Of a stretch of 64,000 nt of DNA, positions 21,914-24,829 are shown in pieces. The notes beneath the pieces are model-generated. The model saw nothing but the letters and a program-made list of their open reading frames with translations, had not been told where the DNA came from and ran no database searches. A program made the position numbers and the translations under genes. The stretch comes from an uncultured Clostridia bacterium (GTDB taxonomy: Bacteria; Bacillota; Clostridia; Christensenellales; Borkfalkiaceae), in assembly GCA_947630705.1 (NCBI GenBank), contig CANRIK010000018.1, positions 186,001 through 250,000 on the forward strand, given 5' to 3'. Each line of letters opens with the position of its first letter. Position 1 is the stretch's first letter.

Positions 21914-22660
21914 TTATAATAATTTTATTTGGTCTAAATCCGCAGGTTTCCCATCTTTTTCAAAAAGCATTAAAAATTCAAGGTTTTTACCCTTAACTTG
22001 CGGCGCGGTTGTCAATTTCAAAGGCGCAAGTCCGCATTTCAATGCAAAATTATAAATTTTGGCAATTATTTTCTCCCTGACCCTTGCATCCTTTACTATT
22101 CCGTTCTTTCCGACGTTCTTGTTTTCACATTCGAATTGCGGCTTTATAAGCGCGATAACATGTCTGCCACTGTCCAATACGGATGCAACTTTATCGAGAA
22201 TATAAGTCAAAGAAATAAAACTCACGTCAATAACAACGCCGTCAAGCGGCTCCGAAAATAAACTTTTATTGAGATTCCTTGCATTAAAGTTTTCTATCGA
22301 AACAATATTTTTATCTGCGAGCGAACTGTCTAATTGATTCTCCCCCACATCTATACAGTACACTTTCTTTGCACCGTTTTGCAAAAGACAGTCGGTAAAT
22401 CCTCCCGTGCTCGCCCCGATATCCGCAAATACTTTGCCATCGGCATCGAATCCGAAATCTCTAATCGCCTTACCAAGTTTAAATCCTCCAAGCGACACGT
22501 AATTTTCTCTCGCTTCCGAAAAAGTAAAATCGTCCGACCCATCGGTATCATACGACGGATTGACGATTTTCCCGTTTACAAGAACCAAACCGCGCTCTAT
22601 GGCTTGCGCCGCTTTTGTGCGTGAGCCGAATTTAGAGGCAAGATATTTATCTATCCTCAT
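21914..22660 (-). CDS. tlyA: TlyA-family rRNA methyltransferase / hemolysin-like
   Basis: S4 domain MRIDKYLASKFGSRTKAAQAIERGLVLVNGKIV; ADIGASTGGFTDCLLQNGAKKVYCIDVG. Confidence 0.93.
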   Translation of the reverse strand: MRIDKYLASKFGSRTKAAQAIERGLVLVNGKIVNPSYDTDGSDDFTFSEARENYVSLGGFKLGKAIRDFGFDADGKVFADIGASTGGFTDCLLQNGAKKVYCIDVGENQLDSSLADKNIVSIENFNARNLNKSLFSEPLDGVVIDVSFISLTYILDKVASVLDSGRHVIALIKPQFECENKNVGKNGIVKDARVREKIIAKIYNFALKCGLAPLKLTTAPQVKGKNLEFLMLFEKDGKPADLDQIKLL

Positions 22661-23298
22661 TTACGAACTTTCTCTTTTTTAAAAAGTGTGGTAAATTTTG
22701 CAAAAGCAAAAACTATTTTTTTATTGTATTTTATAGCAAAATGCTTGAAAATTGCCTTACCGCCAACCGTAAGGGAACCTATAACCGCGCTTACAAGTAT
22801 AGACGAAATAAATTTTACTATACTGTCTCCCGAAACAGCAATTATAATTGACAGCACCGCTCCCGCGGCACCGCTGACTATTCCGCAAATATCTCCTATA
22901 ACGTCTGCAAAAATGCTGCCCAGCTTACTTGCGTTACGGCAAAAAGTTACTGCGCGTCTCGCTCCCTTTATCTTATTCGAGGCCATCGCGTGAAATGCTT
23001 CCGGCTTGCAAGATATTATTGCATTCGCCAAAACGTCGCAACTGATATTTAGAATCAGAAGCACAAGCAATACAACGACGCATAAAATAGCCGGACTGTT
23101 TTCATCGATTACGAGTTCGGTTAAAAAACTGAATATAACAGTCAAACCAAATGATAAAAACAATACGCCCAACCCCCACGTAAGCCATTGCGGAGGTCTC
23201 TTTTTGTTCTTTAAATGCTCCTCTTTTTGTCGGGACTTTTTTTGTTCATCCGAATCCGGTTTATTTTCTTCGTTTAAATCTTGTAGGTTTTCGTCCAT
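22657..23298 (-). CDS. oapA: Probable OLE-associated membrane protein (OapA-like)
   Basis: 213 aa, charged N-terminus plus several TM helices; CDVLANAIISCKPEAFHAMASNKIKGARRAVTFCRNASKLGSIFADVIGDICGIVSGAAGAVL; lies directly downstream of the large ncRNA and directly upstream of tlyA, as oapA does. No homology search was run. Confidence 0.75.
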   Translation of the reverse strand: MDENLQDLNEENKPDSDEQKKSRQKEEHLKNKKRPPQWLTWGLGVLFLSFGLTVIFSFLTELVIDENSPAILCVVVLLVLLILNISCDVLANAIISCKPEAFHAMASNKIKGARRAVTFCRNASKLGSIFADVIGDICGIVSGAAGAVLSIIIAVSGDSIVKFISSILVSAVIGSLTVGGKAIFKHFAIKYNKKIVFAFAKFTTLFKKEKVRK

Positions 23299-23318: not shown

Positions 23319-23341
23319 TACGCACAAAATCCGTGTGCGTA
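23319..23341 (-). terminator. Hairpin with U-rich tail between the ncRNA and the oapA-like gene (3' boundary or attenuator)
   Basis: Minus strand TACGCAC-acggattt-tGTGCGTA followed by TTATTTTTAAA. Confidence 0.5.
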
Positions 23342-23351
23342 GAAATAAAAC

Positions 23352-23904
23352 AATATAGTGGTTTATATTAAATAAACTTTGCGGCTTAGGTTCGGTAGGA
23401 TTTCCCTCGAAGCTCACTTCCCGTCGCCGAAGAAGCAGTTTCCTTTTACGAGCCCGAACGTGTTGCCACATAACCGAATCGCCACTGAGTCCACACCGTA
23501 ATCTCTAATATAAAGTCAGTCTAGAAGCTTTCCTTAACAATTTCGATTGAGCTTATCCTCTTTTGCAAACTCAATTTCAAATAGCAATAGAAAGGCACCG
23601 TCTGGCCAAACAGAACTTTCGTGTTCTATTATCCGCTGAGTCCACTCAAGGCAGGCTACTCTGTACCAAGCTTTCGCCTGACAGCAGGTTTATACCGACA
23701 AAAATAAAATTTGCCGGCCTCCACGGTGAATGGGGTTGGCTGCGGTATGCCGTTACCTAGCTCCCATACACCTTTACTCCCAGCATTCACCCACTTTTGG
23801 CAAAGCAAGCAAACACCAGAAACTTCATCGCTATGCCCTTTAACGGTATTTTACCCCCGTCTTCGTATCAACCGAAACTGACTAGAATACTGCACCACTA
23901 TATT
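23352..23904 (-). ncRNA. ole: Large structured non-coding RNA, probable OLE RNA
   Basis: ~553 nt with no convincing ORF on either strand; perfect 11-bp terminal helix (AATATAGTGGT 23352-23362 with ACCACTATATT 23894-23904); own consensus promoter; located between ispA and an OapA-like gene/tlyA, the canonical OLE locus. Confidence 0.85.
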
Positions 23905-23915
23905 AAGTTTTTATA

Positions 23916-23944
23916 ATTATACCATATGACAGAAAAAATGTCAA
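23916..23944 (-). promoter_or_regulatory. Perfect sigma-A consensus promoter for the OLE-like ncRNA
   Basis: Minus strand TTGACA(23944-23939)-17 nt-TATAAT(23921-23916); predicted start falls at about the first base of the terminal helix. Confidence 0.88.
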
Positions 23945-23950
23945 GGTTAT

Positions 23951-24829
23951 TCAACTTCTTCTTGACAGAACAAACTCTATCAGCCATTTGAAGAAGTCCG
24001 TATCGCCGTCAATGCCCTCCAAAATTTTCAGACACTTATCCGCCAAGACATCGGCTCTCAATTTAGCTCCGTTCAGCCCGAACAACCCGACCGCCGTGCA
24101 CTTTCCCTCTTTTTTATCCTTTCCGACCGTTTTGCCGAGTGAAGAAAAATTGCCTTCCTCGTCCAATATGTCGTCCGTTAATTGAAAGAGACAGCCGAAA
24201 TTCGAGCCGAATAATTTCATTTCCGAATAATATTTGCCGCCGGAGAGTATCGAAGGCACTACAAGCGGAGCGGTAAGCATCTTTGCCGTCTTGTTTTCAT
24301 AAATAAATCCCAGAGTATCTTCATCCGTGTGCGGATCGTTTTCATGCAGTAAATCGGCAGACTGCCCCGCAATCATACCGTATATTCCTGCCGAATCGCA
24401 GATAAATTCCGCCGCAGCAATATGATTTTCTCCCTTTCCGCATTGCGACAGCAATACGGAATATGCGGTATTCAACAGCCCGTCGCCGGCTAAAACCGCA
24501 TTTCCGACTCCGAACACTTTATGGTTGGAAGGTTGTCCCCTTCGGTAATCGTCATTATCCATCTCCGGCAAATCGTCATGTATCAGGGAATATGTGTGAA
24601 TAAGTTCTATTGCAAGTGCGTAAGGTTCGAGCTCCGCACTCTCTACTCCCAATAAATCGCCAGCGGCAAACATCATGGACGGGCGTATCCTTTTTCCTCC
24701 AATTTCAAGACTGTATTTAAGACTGTCCGCAAGTATTTGCGGCTTACAATTTATGCCGTCGATAAATTTACGAAGAACAGAATTAAACTCTTCGGCATAT
24801 TTTTTAAGTTGAAACTCCGATCCGCTCAA
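23951..24829 (-). CDS. ispA: Polyprenyl (farnesyl/geranylgeranyl) diphosphate synthase
   Basis: GGKRIRPSMMFAAGDLLG; LIHDDLPEMDNDDYRRGQPSNHKVFG; LTDDILDEEG. Confidence 0.94.
   Translation of the reverse strand: MSGSEFQLKKYAEEFNSVLRKFIDGINCKPQILADSLKYSLEIGGKRIRPSMMFAAGDLLGVESAELEPYALAIELIHTYSLIHDDLPEMDNDDYRRGQPSNHKVFGVGNAVLAGDGLLNTAYSVLLSQCGKGENHIAAAEFICDSAGIYGMIAGQSADLLHENDPHTDEDTLGFIYENKTAKMLTAPLVVPSILSGGKYYSEMKLFGSNFGCLFQLTDDILDEEGNFSSLGKTVGKDKKEGKCTAVGLFGLNGAKLRADVLADKCLKILEGIDGDTDFFKWLIEFVLSRRS

Follow-up and report, generated by a model that had tools for sequence, protein, structure and literature searches.

The 64,000-nucleotide stretch of DNA analysed here, which we call the window, contains a genuine OLE RNA of the known kind lying beside oapA, the gene for its membrane partner. 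OLE RNA is among the largest structured bacterial RNAs, and its biochemical function is unsettled. The window's genus is Candidatus Coproplasma (Borkfalkiaceae, Christensenellales), which occurs in animal gut metagenomes. We put at roughly 0.88 the probability that the locus as a whole encodes an OLE RNA and a membrane partner, OapA, which together would make up a ribonucleoprotein concerned with metals and stress that can be replaced by the protein MpfA. New in this work is a within-genus record of where this system is present and where it is absent, which includes empty sites, a relic of the terminator and OapAs that have no OLE. The features of the locus, in the order of transcription, are the following:

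23951 to 24829, minus strand: ispA (polyprenyl synthetase), the upstream neighbour; PF00348, E = 1.7e-51
23916 to 23944, minus strand: predicted OLE promoter, TTGACA-17 nt-TATAAT with TG before the -10 box; 12 of 12 consensus positions
23342 to 23914, minus strand: OLE RNA (RF01071); 402.8 bits in cmscan and covariation in 30 relatives
23894 to 23904, minus strand: terminal stem, 5' arm, AATATAGTGGT; pairing with the 3' arm supported by covariation
23604 to 23607, minus strand: GGCC palindrome, P9.3 loop; sequence, and conservation in 27 of 30 relatives
23352 to 23362, minus strand: terminal stem, 3' arm, ACCACTATATT; pairing with the 5' arm supported by covariation
23319 to 23341, minus strand: predicted intrinsic terminator of OLE, TACGCAC...GTGCGTA with a U-rich tail; hairpin between OLE and oapA
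22657 to 23298, minus strand: oapA, a 213-aa membrane protein; DxxxD motif, weak CNNM match, fold and an OLE upstream
21914 to 22660, minus strand: tlyA (S4 and FtsJ methyltransferase domains), the downstream neighbour; 4-bp overlap with oapA

The identity of the RNA is decided by the Rfam covariance search of the minus strand that the sequence-only reading had proposed. With cmscan, the 573-nt locus matched the OLE model over its full length (positions 1 to 616, untruncated) with 402.8 bits and E = 7.2e-115, the gathering score of RF01071 being 50 bits. This is the only OLE copy in the genome (1.59 Mb, 97% complete). The same reading had seen an ORF-poor gap of about 650 nt between ispA and a membrane-protein gene, within a spore-former gene neighbourhood; that neighbourhood is as described, and the gap measures 652 nt, from the end of ispA at 23951 to the start of oapA at 23298, with no convincing ORF on either strand (the longest is 65 aa). 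The interval first drawn, 23352 to 23904, captured the right feature with ends that were too short, as it is the OLE feature cut back to its terminal stem; the Rfam match covers 23342 to 23914, the predicted start lies at about 23909 and the terminator stem extends to 23319.

Covariation among relatives, on which the original proposal had been made to depend, is extensive. Thirty OLE sequences from the genus and from other families of the order were aligned with MAFFT without fitting to structure, and the Rfam structure was mapped onto them via the window sequence, only positions that form a standard pair in the window being counted. Paired cells reached 91.3% versus 75.3% in shuffles, double-sided changes were found at 90 of the 129 pairs versus 65 in shuffles, and none of 500 shuffles matched the observed value on any covariation measure. 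When the partners were slid by 1 to 3 columns, pairing was only 40-45%. The ends of the RNA, already noted as pairing perfectly, do so over 11 bp between AATATAGTGGT and ACCACTATATT, a result equalled in 3 of 2000 shuffles of both 60-nt ends. This terminal stem is unpaired in the Rfam consensus; in the relatives it has double-sided changes at 9 of its 11 pairs and 87.6% of cells paired. No shuffle out of 1000 was as good on pairing and double-sided changes and all slid registers were worse, while the number of pair types was at chance level. Judged from sequence only, the GGCC palindrome sits in the expected P9.3 loop; in the published OLE dimer this palindrome (L9.3) is the symmetric OLE-OLE kissing contact, bridge B3 (PMC12286853). 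The P7 helix is shorter than in the Rfam consensus, and the P13 loop (GGCGAC) is kept.

The proposal that the neighbouring membrane protein is OapA also holds. A DxxxD motif distinguishes OapA from CNNM domains, which lack it (PMC11332333), and here it reads D132-V-I-G-D136 and is invariant in 23 homologues. The match to the Pfam CNNM family (PF01595) has an E of 0.004, under the curated cut-off, and a profile of the protein compared with PDB sequences returned MtCorB only, non-significantly. AlphaFold predicts four long helices (37-63, 70-96, 123-156 and 159-190; pLDDT 80), and the top six Foldseek matches of the model are all CNNM transporters, each of them weak (E 0.01-1, TM-scores 0.3-0.44). 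Each of these lines is weak, and jointly they would be consistent with a distant relationship between OapA and CNNM proteins. Genomic context agrees: 80 named OapA loci were compared, and 73 of them have an OLE within 4 kb upstream. Of the other seven, five start no more than 261 nt from a contig end, too close to be informative. The remaining two, from Anaerofustis stercorihominis (L243) and from a Bacilli MAG (L197), were considered as cases of OapA without OLE and rejected, since OLE and oapA are unlinked there and OLE stands elsewhere in both genomes (at G061:C30 and G062:C39).

Among the other Oap proteins, OapC (L7Ae family, PF01248) is absent from all 37 genus genomes, although it is encoded in 21 of 24 other families. 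For OapB, a KOW protein, the KOW model found only ribosomal protein L24 above its cut-off and missed NusG as well, so that this search looks insensitive. The OLE family does not require these two proteins, and the species with OLE that encode them amount to about 60% for OapB and 45% for OapC; both are mostly absent from other gut clades with reduced genomes (Fernando & Breaker 2024, PMC11332333). The OLE complex of the genus would thus be one that works without OapC.

The RNA would also be its own transcription unit, with a predicted conserved promoter and terminator. The promoter, which follows the ispA stop codon and precedes OLE, is the only site in the 3.1 kb scanned to match at 12 of 12 positions, and promoter-like sites of any strength numbered 9 there versus 5.9 expected; near-consensus promoters occupy the same position in the OLE loci of the genus. 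The terminator pattern occurs once in the window, with 0.04 occurrences expected, and among the fetched loci it marks the OLE 3' ends of the genus and one ispA-tlyA site devoid of OLE. Such a self-contained arrangement could make this a convenient version of OLE for expression.

From published work a mechanism can be outlined. The OLE RNA would dimerise through the GGCC kissing loop of P9.3 and other contacts, as in the published OLE structures, and, as in Halalkalibacterium halodurans, would bind the four-helix, CNNM-like OapA to give a membrane ribonucleoprotein. This particle is expected to adjust the handling of divalent metals (Mg2+) and tolerance to stress. Comparison between genomes suggests that its job may be one that the magnesium exporter MpfA, a CNNM-CBS-CorC protein, can do without RNA, and consequently that relatives with MpfA could lose OLE and oapA. 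Both the OLE phenotypes and the anticorrelation with MpfA across Bacillota have been published (PMC11332333, PMC12265935).

The species-level record of the genus supports this published idea of replacement, with few independent events. Of its 37 genomes, 22 have OLE, and exactly the same 22 have OapA (one of them, G015, counted as positive from a partial match at a contig end). Full-length MpfA (CNNM-CBS-CorC, recognised by its CorC_HlyC domain) is in none of these 22 versus 11 of the 15 others (Fisher p = 1.6e-6, kinship ignored). A laxer whole-genome search of the 15 negative genomes found no OLE, the one match being at chance level (E = 1). In 11 OLE-less genomes (G001, G007, G012, G018, G026, G027, G028, G029, G031, G035 and G036) an empty site was seen, where folD, ispA, in some cases dxs, and tlyA are contiguous and 19-59 nt replace OLE and oapA; this count leaves out G025, with a run of N, and G003, G005 and G023. 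MpfA is present in 10 of the 11 empty-site genomes. The eleventh, G028 (96% complete), has no OLE, no OapA and no CNNM protein of any kind, and therefore MpfA is not always present where OLE is gone. Our first formulation, in which absence of MpfA meant absence of any CNNM protein, was wrong: the window's genome (G000:C4:56897-57421, L147) and five other OLE-positive species (G006, G008, G014, G017 and G019) carry a shorter CNNM-CBS protein of about 335-390 aa without the CorC_HlyC domain. These short proteins group in a clade separate from the MpfA that OLE-negative relatives carry, and CNNM proteins as such are consequently not excluded by OLE.

The most serious alternative, which we regard as possible though distinctly the less likely, is that the complementarity of OLE and MpfA within the genus is a coincidence of kinship and not functional replacement. 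In the PolA tree the OLE-less species fall into one clade (seven species in the tree), which share a single history, plus G035, placed among OLE-positive species, and thus two absences are resolved; G028, having neither system, also suits a coincidence. On the genus tree, the independent pairs were too few for pairwise statistics to be informative. G025 was dropped as a further independent loss, its ispA-dxs junction being a run of N, and the tree was rebuilt without it. Against coincidence stands G035 itself, which is separate from the other OLE-less species (grouping it with their clade is rejected, AU p = 0.0003), possesses MpfA and has kept an OLE terminator: its ispA-tlyA junction contains TACGCACGATTCCGTGCGTATTTTTT, the OLE terminator of the genus (L105 832-849; L078 2255-2272), found in no other OLE-less locus fetched. 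On the PolA tree the absence of OLE in the genus arose at least twice. The G035 terminator is best read as a putative relic of OLE loss, and its survival would mean that OLE disappeared from one side of it and oapA from the other. The MpfA of G035 clusters with that of the OLE-less clade in the CNNM tree, no neighbouring gene family common to the two was found, and a lateral gain of MpfA by G035 is possible. Since only two independent absences are resolved in the genus, the case for replacement rests mainly on the earlier cross-phylum statistics. That the same trend appears over 24 families and over Bacillota (PMC11332333) also argues against coincidence.

Outside the genus, one genome per family was taken for these 24 families. 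MpfA is present in 7 of 7 OLE-less families versus 4 of 17 OLE-positive ones (p = 0.001), these four keeping both OLE and MpfA; one of the seven, G042, is 51% complete and its lack of OLE is insecure. Two other families (G041 and G043, 98% and 95% complete), which both carry MpfA, have an orphan OapA directly after ispA (L082 3033-3711; L083 1433-2232). No OLE was found either in the gap between ispA and OapA, which measures about 142 and 206 bp, or in the rest of the genome. It has been stated in print that OLE and OapA may never occur apart, and G041 and G043 are possible exceptions. Both orphans retain the DxxxD motif; M105 and G112 are changed in both and K109 in one, three residues that are invariant in a comparison set of 21 OapAs with OLE. 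In nine further OapAs, recognised by the DxxxD pattern and not matching the other one, G112 is always present, position 109 is K or R, and M105 is variable. With two orphans, these changes are a lead and not a result, a hint as to which residues may matter only when the RNA is present.

In our estimate the odds are evenly balanced that the whole sequence of events took place as these data would suggest, namely that OLE and OapA were lost at least twice, each time in a lineage with full-length MpfA, with a relic terminator in G035 and orphan OapAs altered at M105, G112 and, in one of them, K109. If true, these events would document, step by step and in nature, how a protein takes over from an RNA machine of the membrane, and the residues changed in the orphans would indicate the region where OapA touches the OLE RNA. 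Close species with and without OLE between the same flanking genes offer a cleaner functional test than comparison across the phylum.

That the window holds a degenerate, non-functional OLE in a reduced gut genome is very improbable: the genome is small (1.59 Mb), OapC was not found and P7 is shortened relative to the Rfam consensus, but the match of 402.8 bits is untruncated, the helices covary throughout the genus, and promoter, terminator and oapA are all intact. Least probable of all is that the RNA is a long structured leader acting in cis on oapA, since its place ahead of a co-oriented oapA in most species is countered by the conserved terminator between the two in the genus, by the separation of OLE from oapA in A. 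stercorihominis and the Bacilli MAG, and by published work in which OLE functions as a membrane ribonucleoprotein.

The window OLE resembles those of H. halodurans and Clostridium acetobutylicum in its full model match, conserved 5' block, covarying helices, GGCC kissing loop and ispA/oapA/tlyA neighbourhood, and differs from them in its shortened P7 and in the missing OapC gene of the genus. In H. halodurans the cluster has been described as giving one polycistronic transcript (PMC12265935), unlike the window OLE with its own predicted promoter and terminator. Also comparable is OLE variant 1 of the gut clade TANB77 (Fernando & Breaker 2024), likewise from uncultured gut Clostridia with small genomes, with P7 short and OapC missing; the window OLE departs from it in keeping the P13 loop GGCGAC, and the likeness is one of description. 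OapA would share a CNNM-like transmembrane fold with MpfA, CorB and CorC, and it is relatives without OLE that have MpfA; these proteins, unlike OapA, are all-protein systems with CBS and CorC_HlyC domains and have no RNA partner.

The suggestion that this locus, if its organism is mesophilic or host-associated, would extend the host range of OLE was not borne out. Anaerofustis stercorihominis is a species of the human gut. An isolate of it carries OLE, and OLE RNAs from gut clades are already published: 2,822 Bacillota genomes with OLE have been reported, some of them from the uncultured gut clades TANB77 and RF39 (Fernando & Breaker 2024, PMC11332333), and the host range is therefore not extended. 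Coproplasma itself corresponds to GTDB UBA11940 (Borkfalkiaceae, Christensenellales) and was described from chicken faeces (PMC8035907).

Some further observations concern the genus loci and the window. In many members of the genus, dxs lies between oapA (or ispA) and tlyA (L084, L094-L103); it is missing at this position (22657-22660) in the window's genome and likewise in G035. Genus contigs often break in or beside OLE (L084-L088, L091, L093), with contig ends at OLE in G009, G010, G011, G015, G016, G021, G022 and G033. Candidate shrunken OLE variants in G009, G011, G015, G016, G021, G022 and G033 were rejected, their partial matches being contig ends. The conserved RNA perhaps tangles assembly graphs and so causes these breaks, and the absence of OLE from draft MAGs consequently needs careful judging. 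Elsewhere in the window, an ORF at 343-2814 encodes a P-type copper ATPase with an apparent heavy-metal-binding domain at both its N- and C-terminus, resembling a CopA-CopZ fusion.
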